From NCBI GenBank assembly GCA_030609125.1, contig JAUWCW010000149.1, positions 1-5,679 of the forward strand: 5,679 bases of DNA. The letters run 5' to 3'. Under the pieces are notes generated by a model. That model had not been told where the DNA came from. It was given only the letters and a program-made list of their open reading frames with translations, and ran no database searches. A program made the position numbers and the translations under genes. Below, in pieces: positions 359-5,407 of this stretch (position 1 is its first letter; every line of letters starts with the position of its first letter). The stretch comes from JAUWCW01 sp030609125 [NCBI: Candidatus Rokuibacteriota bacterium] (GTDB lineage: Bacteria > JAUVQV01).

Positions 359-1630
359 ATGCAGATTACCGGTTTGTGGTGGGGGAGCAAACTCCTGGAC
401 ATCGTCGAGTTTCCTCACTCCAGGGTCCTGGGTCCTGACGCGAGCGTGGACGAGATCAAGGAACTGATCAACGAGTGCGGCGAGGTTTTCATCAAGCCGA
501 TCTTCAGGGGGGGAGTGGGGAAGAAGGGCAAGGCGGGTCTGATGGGCAGGGCGAAGAACGTCACCGATGCCCTGAAGGAGAAGGAGCGGCTCTTCTTCGT
601 GGAGCACACCCACGGAAACACCCACGCCAAGGCGAACGGTGTGACCTTCGAGGGAGCGGTGCAGGCCATCGACGAGGTCTATTTCGCCATCAGCGACAGC
701 ACCAGGTACCGCGCGCCGACGATCACCATAAGCCCCTTCGGCGGCGTGGACATCGAGGAGCTGGGCAGCGACAAGATCGCCGAACGGCCTTTCGATCCGC
801 TCACCGGGCTCAAGTCCTTCCACATCGCCAACGCCCTGCAGCAGGTGAAGGCGCCGACGGAGATCATCAGCCCCCTGGTGCAGCAGCTCCCCAAACTCTG
901 GGATCTTTTCAGCAACTACGGTTTCACCACCCTGGAGCTCAACCCCATCCGGATGGGACTGAACAAGAAGGGGCGCATCGTGCCGGTGGCATGCGACTTC
1001 AAGGCCGCCTTCGACCAGGACGACCCCGCCTGGAAGCGCCTCGGGCTTCCGGAGCACCTCTTCTCGGCGGACATTTCGGAATTCGAGCAGGAGGTCAACC
1101 GGCTTCGGACCTACCAGGGGCAGAGCGACGTCTTCATCATCAACGATGAGGGGACGATCACGGCCCCGACCTTCGGCGGCGGGGCCAACGCCATGGTCAC
1201 CGAGCTTCTCGGCGACACCGCCACGATCTCGTCCGACTTCGGCGGCAACCCCCCCTACGGGAAGATGAACAGCATCTCCGACATCATGTTCAGGCACTGG
1301 ATGGACCAGACGAACGTCCTCTTCATCATAGGGGGCAAGGCGAACAACACGGATATCTACCAGACCTTCCGGGGCATTGCGGATTCTCTGCGGTCCTATA
1401 TCCAGAACCACGGTCCCAAGCCGCTCTTCGTGGTGATCGGCCGCGGCGGCCCGAACCTCATCAAGGGGATGACGTACATGCGGGACACCCTCGATTCCCT
1501 GGGGCTGCCCTATCGGATATTCGGCCACGACAGCGCCATGTCGGAGGTCATCAACTACGCCATGGCCGTCAACGACTGGATGATCAAGGAAGGCAAGGAG
1601 CAGATCGCCAGAAAGCAGGGCGGAAAATGA
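359..1630 (+). CDS. ATP-citrate-lyase-like small subunit (ATP-grasp and citrate-binding domains)
   Basis: This 423-residue protein matches the N-terminal part of animal ATP-citrate lyase and the bacterial small subunit (AclB type, about 400 residues). Residues 1-240 form the ATP-grasp part. Visible landmarks are FIKP (K46) with a glycine/lysine-rich loop at 51-64, LELNP (E193, N195) and D213, the last two at the usual Mg-nucleotide positions of succinyl-CoA synthetase beta subunits. Residues 255-415 form the citrate-binding/ligase domain. Here TFGGGAN (271-277), IIGGKANNT (323-331), Y347 and GRGGPN (361-366) line up with the human citrate-binding loop: N329, T331 and R362 match the residues usually cited as Asn346, Thr348 and Arg379. 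Citrate or a close analogue is therefore the likely substrate. It should act with the product of the next gene, 48 bp downstream, in the small-then-large order also seen in Chlorobium acl operons. No signal peptide or membrane segment is seen; cytosolic. It is intact, and the family call is firm. The exact substrate is inferred. Confidence 0.93.
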   Translation: MQITGLWWGSKLLDIVEFPHSRVLGPDASVDEIKELINECGEVFIKPIFRGGVGKKGKAGLMGRAKNVTDALKEKERLFFVEHTHGNTHAKANGVTFEGAVQAIDEVYFAISDSTRYRAPTITISPFGGVDIEELGSDKIAERPFDPLTGLKSFHIANALQQVKAPTEIISPLVQQLPKLWDLFSNYGFTTLELNPIRMGLNKKGRIVPVACDFKAAFDQDDPAWKRLGLPEHLFSADISEFEQEVNRLRTYQGQSDVFIINDEGTITAPTFGGGANAMVTELLGDTATISSDFGGNPPYGKMNSISDIMFRHWMDQTNVLFIIGGKANNTDIYQTFRGIADSLRSYIQNHGPKPLFVVIGRGGPNLIKGMTYMRDTLDSLGLPYRIFGHDSAMSEVINYAMAVNDWMIKEGKEQIARKQGGK

Positions 1631-1669: not shown

Positions 1670-1678
1670 ATGCGGGAG

Positions 1679-4402
1679 ATGCATAAGCAGGGTGTCGGGG
1701 AGTTTCCCTATTATGTCGGTATCAATTCCCTGAAGGAGATAGCCACCAGGAAGGACAGGGTGTGCGTGTTGAACATTCTCGGCGGCGAGAGCTCGAAGGT
1801 CACGCCCACGAGCCACGAGTACTCGGGGGGGAACGTCGTCTTCGGCACCGGGCCGGGAAAGGCGGGACAGTCCCTGGAGACGCAGCTGGGACCCATCCCG
1901 GTCTACAACAGCGTCCGTGACGGCATCCGTGCCGGCCACCGCTTCAACACCGGCGTGGTCTACCTTCCCCCGGCGGGCGTTCGCGACGGGGTTCTGGAGC
2001 TGATCCGCGCCAACAAGGATCTGAAGAAAGTCATCATCGTCACGGAGAAGGTCTCCCTCAGCGACGCCCGGATCATCAGGGCCGTTGCCCAGGTGAACGG
2101 GGTCGACATCTTCGGGGCCAACTGTCTCGGCGTGGCCGACGCGTGGAACAAGGTCCGCCTCGGCGGCGCGCTGGGAGGAAGCAAACCCGACGAGTCGCTC
2201 GTGAAGGGGTCCATCGCCATCTTTTCCAACTCGGGCAACTTCACCACCACCATCGCCGTCTACCTGCTGACCAGGGGCTGGGGGACCACGACCTCCGTCT
2301 CGAGCGGGAAGGACGTCTACATCCACTACGGGCCCAAGGAGTTCTGCTACGCCCTCGACAACGACGCCCGTTCCAAGGGGGCGGTGATGTACGTCGAGCC
2401 CGGCGGATACTACGAGTACGAGCTGGAGTGCCAGAAGCCGGTCGTCGCCTGCATCGTGGGGCGGTGGAAGTCGAAGATTTCCCGCGCCTGCGGTCACGCC
2501 GGCTCCCTGGCCGGCTCGGGAGACGACGCCAGGGCCAAGGAGCGCTGGTTCATGGACTACTTCGGGGTGGACGATATCTTCACCCCGGACAATCCCGTCT
2601 ACTCCAAGAAGGGGGCGGTGGTGACCAACATCGCTCACATCCCCGAGGCCCTCTCGGCCGTGATGGAGAACAACTGCACCGAGCCCGATTTCGAGCCCCG
2701 CGGAAATCTCTCCCTCAAGTGCTGGTTTGCCAACAACAGCGGCGTCAAGCTCCCGCCCGCGCTGGACATCAAGACCGTGGAGGCCGTGGCGCCCTACAAC
2801 GAGCAGATTGCCCTGTCGCTGCGGCAGGTGGGCGCCCAGTTCCCCCGGGAGAACCTGAAGGACGCCTCCGGCGCCTCCATGATGGATCCCAAGAGCCAGG
2901 TCACCAGGGTGCACAACATTTCTGTCCTCGAGGCGAGCCGGCACACCCTGGAGGAGAACCTGGTCATGTCCCTCGTGCGGGGCTACCCGACCGAGAAGGG
3001 AAAAGTGCTGGCCAACATAGCCCTGAACGCCGCCGTCAACATGCGCGGCGAGCCCGCCCTGGCCGCCTCGGACGCGGCGCGCGAAAACGGCAACTCCCCC
3101 AACACGGTGCTGGCCGCCGCGGCGGCGGTGACGGGACGGAAGAAGGCGGCCGGAGCCATGGAGGCGGCGGAGCTCCTGGTGGAAACCTTTCAGCACGAGC
3201 TCGGGGACGACCCCTTCAACGGCGCCGATCTGAAGGCGGCGCTGAAAAAGGTTTCGGCCGGCTCCCGGAAGAATGTGCTCCTCTCGGCCAAGGCGGACAA
3301 GAGGGCGGCGGCGGCGCTGAAGGCCATCGCCGCCGGGAAAGCCGACTCGGTCTTCACGCTCTTTGTGCGTGAGCTGGCGAAGAAGGCGAAAAAGCACGTC
3401 TCCTTCGACGCCGTCATCGCCGCCATCTGGACGACCCTCGGGTGGGAGTCCCTGAAGAGAAAGAAGATCTCGAAGGTCACCATAGGCCGGCTTCCGTGGC
3501 ACTCGCTCATGTTCAGCACCCTCGTCGGGTGCAGCGTCGGCGCCGACAGGCATGAGGACGGCTCCTTCTGCGGCGTCGCCGACGATGAGCTCACTGCCGG
3601 CTGGTCCTTCACCGAGACGGCCTTCCTGACCCTTCTCGGGAGGAAGCCGACGCAGAGCGAGCTCTTCGAGTTCACCATGATGCTGGGGCTGATCGTCTCC
3701 AACGGCCCGGGGACGATCTCGGCCCAGGGGGCGAAGGGCGCGGTGAGCGCCGATGGTCCCATGCGGCCCGAGAGGGTGCAGGTCAACAAGGGGTACGTGG
3801 GCTTTCTCACGCACACCGGCTTCGCTCACGGCGGAAACGGGTTCGAGGCTATTTCGTTTCTCCTCGACCGCTTCCGCGACCAGAAGCTGAAAGACCCGGG
3901 CGAGAAGAAGCACCGGATAAGCATCGCCCGCATTGCCAAGGAGTACGCCGAGGAGTACCTCGTGTACAAAACGAAGGAGAAGGCGGCGGGAAACCTGGAG
4001 TACGCCAAGATCCCCTGCATCAACCACCCCGTATTCAAGGGTCTCGACGTGAACATCGACCCGCGGGAGGACTTCGTGAAGGGCCTTTTCGAGGAGAAGA
4101 AGATTTACAACATCTTCCTCGAGTTCTACCACGAGCTGGTGGAGAAGCTCTTCGAGGTCGGCGTCAGCCGCAACATCTACTGCGTCAACATCGACGCCGT
4201 CATCGCCGTCATACTCCTGAAGATGCTCTGGAAGCCCCTGCACAGCGGCAAGCTCGCCGACGACGAAGCCGAGACGGCGGCCTTCACGAGCTTTCTCTTC
4301 GGCAGGATGATAGGCTCGGCGGCGGAGATCGACGACCACACCAACCGCGGCCGGGACATGGACACGAGGACGGCGGCGAGCAAATGCCGCTTCGTGAGCT
4401 GA
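1679..4402 (+). CDS. ATP-citrate-lyase-like large subunit: CoA-ligase half plus two citrate-synthase-like domains
   Basis: This 907-residue protein (910 if started at 1670) has two halves. Residues 10-335 resemble the CoA-binding and ligase domains of succinyl-CoA synthetase alpha and ATP-citrate lyase: FGTGPG (55-60), GANCLG (146-151), SNSGN (183-187), an acidic VEPGG (239-243, E240) and the phosphohistidine motif GHAGS with H273. Residues 611-900 form a citrate-synthase-like domain with H717 (AHGGN), H783 (INHP), R796 (DPR), D839 (NIDA), R876 (FGR) and R897, matching pig citrate synthase H274, H320, R329, D375, R401 and R421. Q683 replaces the His of ATP-citrate lyase (human H900). Residues about 390-606 look like a second, degenerate copy of the same fold. 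With the upstream subunit it should activate citrate through phosphate and CoA and then cleave citryl-CoA, or run the reverse. It is about 300 residues longer than the Chlorobium-type large subunit. It ends 18 bp from the convergent transposase stop, with no clear terminator between. Family firm; physiological direction and substrate inferred. Confidence 0.93.
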   Translation: MHKQGVGEFPYYVGINSLKEIATRKDRVCVLNILGGESSKVTPTSHEYSGGNVVFGTGPGKAGQSLETQLGPIPVYNSVRDGIRAGHRFNTGVVYLPPAGVRDGVLELIRANKDLKKVIIVTEKVSLSDARIIRAVAQVNGVDIFGANCLGVADAWNKVRLGGALGGSKPDESLVKGSIAIFSNSGNFTTTIAVYLLTRGWGTTTSVSSGKDVYIHYGPKEFCYALDNDARSKGAVMYVEPGGYYEYELECQKPVVACIVGRWKSKISRACGHAGSLAGSGDDARAKERWFMDYFGVDDIFTPDNPVYSKKGAVVTNIAHIPEALSAVMENNCTEPDFEPRGNLSLKCWFANNSGVKLPPALDIKTVEAVAPYNEQIALSLRQVGAQFPRENLKDASGASMMDPKSQVTRVHNISVLEASRHTLEENLVMSLVRGYPTEKGKVLANIALNAAVNMRGEPALAASDAARENGNSPNTVLAAAAAVTGRKKAAGAMEAAELLVETFQHELGDDPFNGADLKAALKKVSAGSRKNVLLSAKADKRAAAALKAIAAGKADSVFTLFVRELAKKAKKHVSFDAVIAAIWTTLGWESLKRKKISKVTIGRLPWHSLMFSTLVGCSVGADRHEDGSFCGVADDELTAGWSFTETAFLTLLGRKPTQSELFEFTMMLGLIVSNGPGTISAQGAKGAVSADGPMRPERVQVNKGYVGFLTHTGFAHGGNGFEAISFLLDRFRDQKLKDPGEKKHRISIARIAKEYAEEYLVYKTKEKAAGNLEYAKIPCINHPVFKGLDVNIDPREDFVKGLFEEKKIYNIFLEFYHELVEKLFEVGVSRNIYCVNIDAVIAVILLKMLWKPLHSGKLADDEAETAAFTSFLFGRMIGSAAEIDDHTNRGRDMDTRTAASKCRFVS

Positions 4403-4424
4403 CGGGGTCAGCTGACGGGGTCAG
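4399..4424. repeat. Tandem repeat of the 13-bp palindrome CTGACGGGGTCAG
   Basis: Two exact, directly abutting copies lie at 4399-4411 and 4412-4424. Each can fold as a hairpin, CTGAC-GGG-GTCAG, with a 5-bp stem and 3-nt loop. The first copy contains the TGA stop of the large-subunit gene (4400-4402). The second contains the stop of the minus-strand transposase (4421-4423). The sequence continues as GCACTGAAACGTGAAA. Short hairpins at the edge of a Y1/HUH transposase gene are the kind of end signal these enzymes recognise, so this is probably the right-hand (gene 3') end of the element. There is no T-run, so terminator function is doubtful. Confidence 0.75.
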
Positions 4425-5407
4425 GCACTGAAACGTGAAATAACGGCGGCCGCTTCCCGCTCCCATTGGGAGCGGAAGGCGTCGTCGCTTTCCAGTTCCT
4501 GCCCTGTTCGGCGGTAGAGGTGTGAGACGGCCGACGGGTCGGTGTGTCCGGTAACCTCGATGATCTCTCGGTTTTCCGAAGGTGTGTGTTGCCTCGCGAG
4601 CCAGACGAACATCTCTCTCGCTCTCTTGGTGTCGGGAGAACTGTCCGGGCACCCCTTCTTGATTGTCCGCACCCCGTAGTACTCACAGACGCCCTCTTTG
4701 AGGGTGTCGATGGGGATCGGCCGGAGGTAGAGACGCCGATAGGACACATTGTTGAATCGGCGGTTTCGCTCGATGCTTCCGAGACCCTTCTGAATGAAGT
4801 TTTCGTCTCCCGCGACTGCCCTGGCAACGGCCTCGTCGATAGGGTACTCATCGGGATTATCCATTCCCTCTTCGATGAAGGCGCGGTACCGGGCCGATGC
4901 TTCCGCGCGCTTCGATCCGTACCGTCTGAGAATCCAATCCGTATTGAGCCATGAGGGGGCATCCTTCATGCCGAGGTAGCTGGCGTAACTGCTCCAGGGA
5001 AACTCTTCCGCCTTTTCGACTATCCCTGCATGGTAAGGATTGAGGTGAATATAGCGGCTCAGTCCTGCGAGGTAATGTTCCGTCTTGACACAGAGTGACT
5101 TGAATCGTCCGGAGAAGACGTGGCCGATCAATCCTCTCTTCCGCCTCATGTGTCCGGCAAATACCGAGCCGGTGTAGTGCATAATCCTCGAGAGATTCCT
5201 TCCCGGGTCGGAGAGGAGGAGATGGTAGTGGTTGTCCATGATGCAGTAAGCAAAGAGCTCGATGCCGTAGCGCTCGATCCCCGTGGAGAAGATGTCGAGG
5301 AAATGTCTCTTGTCGTCCTCGCGTTCGAATATGAAGGCTCCCTTGCCTCCTCTCGACAGGACGTGGTGTGCCGCGCCTTCAACATGAATGCGCAAGGGTC
5401 GCGCCAT
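4421..5407 (-). CDS. REP-associated-type Y1/HUH transposase with DnaA-like C-terminal domain
   Basis: This is a 328-residue single-strand DNA transposase of the IS200-like/REP-associated (RAYT) group. The N-terminal Y1 domain spans about 1-150. It has the metal-binding HUH motif in MDNHYHLLL (H60, H62) and the region GHVFSGRFKS (95-104). The conserved RYIHLNPYHAGIV follows at 118-130, whose Y119 aligns with the catalytic Tyr of the E. coli REP transposase. WSSYASYLG (138-146) is also typical. Residues about 233-300 resemble the DNA-binding C-terminal domain of DnaA, with a helix-turn-helix ending GHTDPSAVSH (287-296). The start is supported by a perfect Shine-Dalgarno 9 nt upstream. It makes a nick at short hairpins and joins ends as single strands. 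The gene appears intact, with no frameshift. It is convergent with the large-subunit gene, and its third codon positions look less GC-biased than in that gene, suggesting a later arrival. Many such genes are domesticated and not mobile. Confidence 0.95.
   Translation of the reverse strand: MARPLRIHVEGAAHHVLSRGGKGAFIFEREDDKRHFLDIFSTGIERYGIELFAYCIMDNHYHLLLSDPGRNLSRIMHYTGSVFAGHMRRKRGLIGHVFSGRFKSLCVKTEHYLAGLSRYIHLNPYHAGIVEKAEEFPWSSYASYLGMKDAPSWLNTDWILRRYGSKRAEASARYRAFIEEGMDNPDEYPIDEAVARAVAGDENFIQKGLGSIERNRRFNNVSYRRLYLRPIPIDTLKEGVCEYYGVRTIKKGCPDSSPDTKRAREMFVWLARQHTPSENREIIEVTGHTDPSAVSHLYRRTGQELESDDAFRSQWEREAAAVISRFSA

Follow-up and report, generated by a model that had tools for sequence, protein, structure and literature searches.

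Why does about a quarter of the AclA chain in a bacterial gene pair resembling ATP citrate lyase (ACL) match no protein family? We address this question for a window of 5,679 bases, the whole of contig JAUWCW010000149.1 (assembly GCA_030609125.1, Candidatus Rokuibacteriota), which carries an aclB-like and an aclA-like gene as well as a transposase-like gene on the opposite strand. ACL serves as a marker for the reverse Krebs cycle. In the AclA-like protein, the ligase part had the small subunit of citryl-coenzyme A (CoA) synthetase (6hxq) as its top PDB sequence match (E = 3.3e-32), and the C-terminal module matched models of citryl-CoA lyase (CCL), with scores below their curated cutoffs. Residues ∼390 to 607 of the window protein, scanned alone, gave no family match. 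Our analysis confirmed that the AclA-like protein has two homologous C-terminal CCL modules in a row, of which the first (copy 1) takes in the unmatched stretch and appears to be a dead version of the second (copy 2). As a dead lyase copy, this stretch accounts for the large size of the protein and for part of the low similarity noted in the paper on Nitrospina gracilis (PMC3578206). The arrangement is real, well supported, and widespread, and it adds a new feature to the architecture of an enzyme type already known.

For comparison of the two copies, 51 aligned large subunits were reduced to 33 at <90% identity, and omission of one sequence with a single CCL module (L083) left 32 tandem members. 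The set does not include L043, L059, and L075, whose frames are partial or split, and L082, which is devoid of its C terminus, was counted for copy 1 only; hence, counts refer to 32 sequences for copy 1 and to 31 for copy 2. HHalign paired the two copies over 197 columns (E = 1.3e-10; score, 75.9), far above chance: the maximum of 100 column shuffles was 24.2, the reversed profile scored 17.9, and six control comparisons with N-terminal parts gave scores of 10.5 to 14.6. With eight sequences, residues 385 to 612 paired with residues 606 to 910 (E = 1.9e-5; probability, 78%), and re-aligned copies scored 95.1 against a shuffle maximum of 22.4, or 69.6 without the linker that precedes copy 1. 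The initial annotation, made from the letters of the window, had proposed two citrate-synthase-like domains in tandem and had named a profile comparison of the two halves as a check. This comparison bore out the tandem and the homology of its parts; the module is, however, a CCL and not a citrate synthase.

Copy 2 matched the NCBIfam citryl-CoA lyase model NF004869 at E ≤ 0.01 in 31/31 members, the window reaching 38.9 bits (curated cutoff, 212). The gathering cutoff of PF00285 (27) was reached neither by the whole protein (14.9 bits) nor by a 303-residue C-terminal part (18.8 bits). Copy 1 alone gave no significant citrate synthase or CCL match in Pfam or NCBIfam for any of the 32 members, and none at all for the window; subthreshold E values, from one member each, were 0.015 (NF004865), 0.23 (NF010635), and 0.079 (PF00285). 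A PDB sequence search with the window segment of copy 1 and with the 32-row profile returned 0 matches up to E = 10. Since neither family nor PDB searches of copy 1 alone are significant, the module is invisible to ordinary annotation.

The best evidence for copy 1 as a CCL module came from relatives that carry only one such module. A 690-residue protein of this kind was found in three genomes (G620, G644, and G649) and consists of a ligase part, a linker, and a CCL module with NGPG and the equivalents of H720, H786, and D842 of copy 2. An AclB-like gene, 35 to 36% identical to that of the window, adjoins it at the two loci checked (G620 and G649). By BLASTP, copy 1 (residues 385 to 625) significantly matched the three single CCL modules in 32/32 members, with E values that apply to this tiny three-module subject set; copy 1 of the window reached 60.5 bits over 251 columns at 25% identity. 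Letter-shuffled versions of copy 1 fell below 1e-3 in 0 of 640 cases and scored at most 25 bits. HHalign paired copy 1 with the single CCL over 227 columns (E = 1.5e-22), and it still gave E = 3e-18 without the linker (score, 151.3; shuffle maximum, 23.4). When the single CCL was used as a tblastn query, six tandem genomes returned a second, upstream match that coincided with copy 1 (E = 2.3e-9 to 1.9e-6). At the level of sequence, these relatives settle the identity of copy 1.

A tree was built from 17 tandem members, hand-picked for spread among the 32. In it, copy 1 and copy 2 formed two clades (100/100 and 100/97) that were sisters at 91/87 and stood apart from the single CCLs, and the branching inside the two clades was similar. 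Together with the HHalign and BLASTP comparisons, the tree argues for duplication within the family, as had been supposed from the window. Because the single CCL follows the same linker, copy 1 occupies the ancestral position, and copy 2 is the additional module, the one that presumably retained catalysis. The earlier view of the first copy as the duplicate is sound as regards a degenerate tandem duplicate, but copy 1 holds the ancestral position, and the arrangement is family-wide.

Structure prediction had been named as a means of detecting a different fold or disorder in copy 1. Our models of copy 1 and of the full-length protein each rest on 7 sequences. Residues 380 to 612, modeled alone by AlphaFold2 with no copy 2 sequence, gave a predicted local distance difference test score (pLDDT) of 62.3 and a predicted template modeling score of 0.63, with 97/233 residues below a pLDDT of 50. 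In Foldseek, the top PDB match of this model was the H. thermophilus CCL 6hxp (E = 3.4e-3; probability, 1.00; template modeling [TM] score, 0.40), and 49 of the 50 listed rows were CCL, ACL, or citrate or methylcitrate synthase. VIA-align superposed 142 residues on 6hxp at 4.2 Å (Z = 11.2). The full-length model had a pLDDT of 53.0 overall and of 77 to 92 in 21 of the 23 ten-residue blocks between residues 441 and 670. Here, 6hxp aligned to residues 407 to 627 (200 residues; Z = 16.7), and whole citrate synthase chains spanned both copies, e.g., 3tqg_B at residues 409 to 895 (278 residues; 3.5 Å). With modest model confidence, the predicted fold of copy 1 thus resembles CCL and citrate synthase. 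Neither of the outcomes named in the initial annotation as refuting it was observed, as similarity between the profiles of the two copies is also strong.

In copy 2, N678, H720, H786, R799, D842, and R879 were each invariant (31/31; all residue numbers are those of the 910-residue open reading frame [ORF]). H720, H786, and D842 follow the citrate synthase pattern of H274, H320, and D375, rather than the ACLY pattern. At the position of H720, no His occurred among the 32 copy 1 sequences, with Arg in 15 and Lys in 5. The window has K492, the same substitution that the initial annotation had given as K489 for H717; it had also noted the lack of a His matching H783 (H786 here), and the lid segment that carries this residue is indeed absent from copy 1, being gapped in 17/17 rows of the tree alignment. 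Thr, Val, or Ala replaced R879 in 27/32 members (T617 in the window), and Arg was present in 1/32. R799 lies in a poorly alignable stretch, where Arg was found in 3/17 copy 1 rows, the window included. The Asp said to be kept by the first copy (D577, now D580) is present in the window but in only 23/32 members. One detail, the proposed equivalence of the GR motifs G606-R607 and G878-R879, failed: the former exists, yet the alignment places it at E868-T869 and pairs R879 with T617. Residues invariant in copy 1 over the 32 members were G388, R393, S400, G401, L420, P477, N478, G489, F507, and W592 (A5 numbering shifted by 384). As the H720 position never holds His and the H786 segment is missing, the first copy is degenerate, as had been predicted.

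Copy 1 is under purifying selection. Among 25 close pairs, in which the sequences are distinct but share 85% identity or more, its ratio of nonsynonymous to synonymous substitution rates (dN/dS) had a median of 0.073 and a maximum of 0.114, compared to medians of 0.035 for both copy 2 and the ligase part in the same pairs. An earlier set of 52 pairs (dS of 0.05 to 1.2), in which copy 1 reached 0.68, was replaced because it contained duplicate loci as well as distant pairs that resemble each other in codon usage and give unreliable dS values. The stretch corresponding to residues 415 to 605 measured 183 to 193 residues in 32/32 members. Mean conservation was lower in copy 1 (0.52) than in copy 2 (0.68). 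In the former, it was lowest at residues 508 to 573 (0.35 to 0.47) and highest in the linker, the helices at residues 427 to 436 and 477 to 488, and the last two helices (0.59 to 0.75). Judged by its residues, copy 1 is a dead enzyme, yet one that is not decaying.

We assign a probability of roughly 60% to the overall reading that the gene pair encodes a type II ACL in which copy 2 cleaves and the dead copy 1 is a built-in structural partner. By family membership, AclB and the front part of AclA would form citryl-CoA from citrate, CoA, and ATP via a phosphohistidine, and copy 2, to judge from its residues, would cleave citryl-CoA to acetyl-CoA and oxaloacetate. The sequences support a copy 1 that arose by tandem duplication, sits where the ancestral CCL was, lost its active-site residues and lid segment, and kept the helical core. 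Most likely it takes, within the same chain, the place of the second CCL subunit of ordinary ACL, and the lyase core would then be a pseudosymmetric assembly to which each chain contributes a live and a dead module. Copy 1 likely stands in structurally for a lyase subunit, presumably by pairing with copy 2 and with fewer subunits in the assembly; a dead lyase copy predicts a different subunit count. More tentatively, the dead and live CCL modules might pack as one citrate-synthase-like protomer, in a compact A2B2 complex with two active sites and not the usual A4B4, a geometry that we regard as somewhat doubtful. From subunit masses of 98.6 and 46.8 kDa, A2B2 would weigh ∼291 kDa and A4B4 ∼582 kDa.

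Several observations weigh against the structural-partner reading. The models are weak, with mean pLDDT values of 62 (copy 1) and 53 (full length) from 7 sequences; that of copy 1 had no Foldseek match at E = 0.001 and a best TM score of 0.40, and Z scores below ∼13, such as the 11.2 of copy 1 alone, may mean only an arrangement common to helical models. The root of the tree depends on a single canonical branch of great length, the program warns of long branches meeting, and the three single CCLs do not form one clade. Copy 1 retains Asp at the D842 position in 23/32 members, and its per-helix conservation marks core versus lid, not interface helices specifically.

Other roles of copy 1 can be imagined. 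As a regulatory domain, it would bind citrate, CoA, acetyl-CoA, or a nucleotide with no turnover and control copy 2 or the ligase half. Purifying selection and the Asp at the D842 position speak for such a role, and regulation could matter to carriers that range from probable Nitrospinota to heterotroph plasmids near carboxylate transport genes. However, the equivalents of the lid and of the residues lining the active site are the least conserved or missing parts of copy 1, and we consider regulation unlikely. Equally unlikely, in our view, is a role in spacing or docking, in which copy 1 would carry citryl-CoA or hold copy 2 in position relative to the ligase half and would replace no lyase subunit. 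Copy 1 does sit between the ligase half and the live lyase, behind a well-conserved linker (0.75), but the single-CCL relatives manage without such a module, and the alignment of citrate synthase chains across both copies, although seen in a low-confidence model, suggests that these pack against each other. Persisting enzyme activity of copy 1, with its catalytic residues at new places or with a different reaction, would agree with its low dN/dS and with a nearby His (column 459) in 11/32 members, where the window has Arg; given that no His, Asp, or Glu is among the residues invariant over the 32 members, we hold this to be very improbable. A chance or low-complexity resemblance of an unrelated Ala-rich helical insert, to which the want of any significant copy 1 match to the Pfam and NCBIfam citrate synthase or CCL models might point, can practically be dismissed, since composition-keeping column and letter shuffles never came near the real scores, the alignments are collinear over ∼200 to 227 columns, and a fold search without copy 2 sequence returned CCL.

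The features of the window are listed in Table 1.

Table 1. Features of the window (nucleotide positions count from its first base; residues refer to the 910-amino-acid ORF)
Feature	Position	Strand	Evidence or remark
aclB-like gene, 423 amino acids, ATP-grasp and citrate-binding subunit	359..1630	+	Pfam Citrate_bind 7.2e-19, ATP-grasp_2 2e-13
aclA-like gene, 910 amino acids (907 if start is ATG at 1679)	1670..4402	+	
CoA-binding and succinyl-CoA-ligase-like part, residues 20-340	1727..2689	+	Pfam CoA_binding, Succ_CoA_lig
Presumed phosphohistidine H276 of AclA ligase part	2495-2497	+	His in 32/32 members
Linker, residues 385-413 (PR..LKDASGASMMD)	2822..2908	+	Common to single-CCL relatives
Copy 1, degenerate CCL module, residues 414-625	2909..3544	+	HHalign, BLASTP, fold, alignment columns
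Copy 1 positions K492 (=H720); D580 (=D842); T617 (=R879)	3143-3145; 3407-3409; 3518-3520	+	
Copy 2, presumed catalytic CCL module, residues 626-910	3545..4399	+	NCBIfam NF004869, invariant columns
Copy 2 positions N678; H720; H786; R799; D842; R879	3701-3703; 3827-3829; 4025-4027; 4064-4066; 4193-4195; 4304-4306	+	
Transposase-like gene	4421-5407	-	N-terminal part matches REP-associated tyrosine transposase with 56.8 bits (cutoff, 80)

A start of AclA at the second Met is plausible because of the position of GGAGG (1665 to 1669), which lies directly 5′ of the first ATG and 9 bases 5′ of the second, and because the open frame of L009 itself starts at the Met equivalent to the second one (MHK..., nucleotide 1679). 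The initial annotation counted from this second Met, so its residue numbers are 3 below those of the 910-residue ORF. All strings that it cited are present in the window protein with this offset: SLVRGYPTEKGKV (434 to 446), AMEAAELLVETFQ (496 to 508), and VSFDAVIAAI (577 to 586) in copy 1 and TLLGRKPTQSELF (654 to 666), GFEAISFLLDRFR (724 to 736), and VNIDAVIAVI (839 to 848) in copy 2. As a separate observation, the C-terminal residues 228 to 315 of the transposase-like protein matched the last part of DnaA (E = 1.5e-6), a fusion that may be worth attention.

Matches to the family were found in 47/60 genomes of probable Nitrospinota, a few of them fragments, and in 31/31 of those genomes with completeness of 90% or more and contamination of no more than 5%. 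Further matches came from 6 named metagenome-assembled genomes, which overlap partly with the Nitrospinota genomes, from 10/386 genomes across the domain, from 10/52, 9/148 (one of them single-CCL), and 2/8 genomes of three further phyla, and from 1/2 genomes of the phylum of the window. Of 72,556 plasmid records, 19, from rhizobia, Paraburkholderia, and others, had a match that covered 80% or more of the query. Where plasmid records are annotated, the large subunit goes by the name of "CoA-binding protein" or "hypothetical protein." It was preceded by an AclB-like or ATP-grasp gene in 9/9 annotated plasmid regions inspected, and genes annotated for di-, tri-, or 2-hydroxycarboxylate transport were nearby in 7/9 (not in L066 and L068); the regions compared differed in length, and four further ones carried no annotation. 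Citrate, tricarballylate, dicarboxylate, and 2-hydroxycarboxylate transport genes were near the gene pair on heterotroph plasmids (L053, L054, L067, and L147 to L150). These plasmid contexts suggest ATP-driven citrate use outside CO2 fixation. At L007, a monomeric isocitrate dehydrogenase (positions 2289 to 4526; TIGR00178, 1267.7 bits) is encoded directly upstream of aclBA; among four loci of named metagenome-assembled genomes whose neighborhoods were scanned in part (L003, L004, L007, and L008), this was the only one with a Krebs cycle neighbor. The gene neighborhoods fit citrate metabolism, short of proof. A full-length citrate synthase was also found in 22/25 carrier genomes searched (E = 2.0e-91 or better); G229 and G532 gave no match, and G490 gave CCL-type matches only. 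Phage records yielded one short match, to the CoA-ligase part only.

Three further observations concern single genomes. Genome G063 holds both a canonical AclA (L110; contig C98, 619-codon frame) and the tandem type (contig C28). At L059 (G289:C76), a single in-frame TAA divides the gene for the large subunit, leaving frames of 418 and 526 codons; this may reflect a pseudogene, recoding, or a sequencing error. At L107 (G490:C18), two adjacent CCL-like ORFs (1282 to 2244, 321 codons; 2232 to 3311, 360 codons) were observed, the second of which seems to be devoid of the usual lid and NVD motifs; the pair is perhaps a live and a dead CCL encoded as separate genes.

Among known systems, the gene pair comes closest to the type II ACL, which was reportedly proposed by Hugler and Sievert in 2011. 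Passages in Thiel et al. (2012) describe type II primers that encode VAKEEWF and NGFEAIA and gave detection in tubeworm symbionts (PMC3522073), and Magnetococcus MC-1 is described, in a part of another report, as cleaving citrate with only the postulated type II genes (PMC6783814). The pair analyzed here has the type II gene arrangement, with adjacent AclB-like and AclA-like genes, and the window motifs AKERWF (289 to 294) and NGFEAIS (723 to 729) lie at the expected primer sites, ∼1.3 kb apart. Nucleotide mismatches to the two primers numbered 3 and 2 in L069 (1318 bases), 4 and 2 in L084 (1309 bases), and 7 and 6 in the window; the canonical L110 had 9 and 9, which is the chance level. Because the primer-site motifs match and MC-1 cleaves citrate with type II genes, this suggests that the pair is a type II ACL, an assignment made by primer-site motifs and not by named type II sequences. 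The open-license literature searched yielded no account of tandem or degenerate CCL modules in type II ACL.

Like type I ACL (AclA/AclB and human ACLY), the protein has a CoA-ligase part followed by a CCL module, with AclB as companion. In contrast, canonical AclA (L110; ∼613 to 619 amino acids) has one CCL module with DHG, whereas the window family has two with NGPG. The His of DHG in L110 falls at N678 of copy 2 (Asn in 31/31), and Phe takes the place of H720. This exchange of the DHG His for Asn was seen in 31/31 copy 2 modules and in 3/3 single CCLs; it may point to a shift in the set of catalytic residues or to a different tricarboxylate as substrate. The H. thermophilus CCL (6hxp) is both the top structural match of copy 1 and the top PDB sequence match of the copy 2 profile (E = 4.9e-6), but it is a standalone protein and not a tandem within AclA. 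The single-CCL relatives share the ligase part, the linker, the NGPG-type CCL, and the adjacent AclB-like gene and differ in having one CCL module and 690 amino acids; they perhaps resemble the Planctomycetes fusion described in a passage of PMC5459899, a likeness drawn from that description alone.

The last comparison is with citrate synthase, which Verschueren et al. are said to have linked to a CCL module in 2019. A summary of this link is given in part of PMC9871338. Our citrate synthase profile (23 sequences; loci L085 to L106 and L108) aligned twice to copy 2, with its C-terminal part (E = 1.5e-7) and with 73 N-terminal columns (E = 1.2e-5). The N-terminal unit alone scored 46.3 against copy 2 (shuffle maximum, 21.1; E = 9.4e-7) and gave E = 0.005 against copy 1. 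This double alignment to the N-terminal part of CCL hints at an internal partial duplication in citrate synthase, although its two parts, compared with each other, were not significantly similar (E = 0.031). A single duplication common to citrate synthase and the tandem family was considered and is not supported (E = 0.005 and 0.031), although it keeps some likelihood because copy 1 is so diverged. The double match makes citrate synthase look like a complete CCL unit preceded by an incomplete one, but its extra N-terminal unit is shorter and closer to copy 2 than to copy 1. The tandem arrangement resembles a step proposed for the origin of citrate synthase, and, as far as sequences tell, an ACL family living today shows a comparable tandem next to relatives that lack the duplication. 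Since the duplicated and the unduplicated CCL fusion are both extant, this step becomes testable at the bench. If our reading is correct, the single-CCL relatives would represent the state before duplication, and the tandem family would be a living example of a route from a tetrameric CCL to a dimeric citrate synthase by duplication, fusion, and decay of the first copy.

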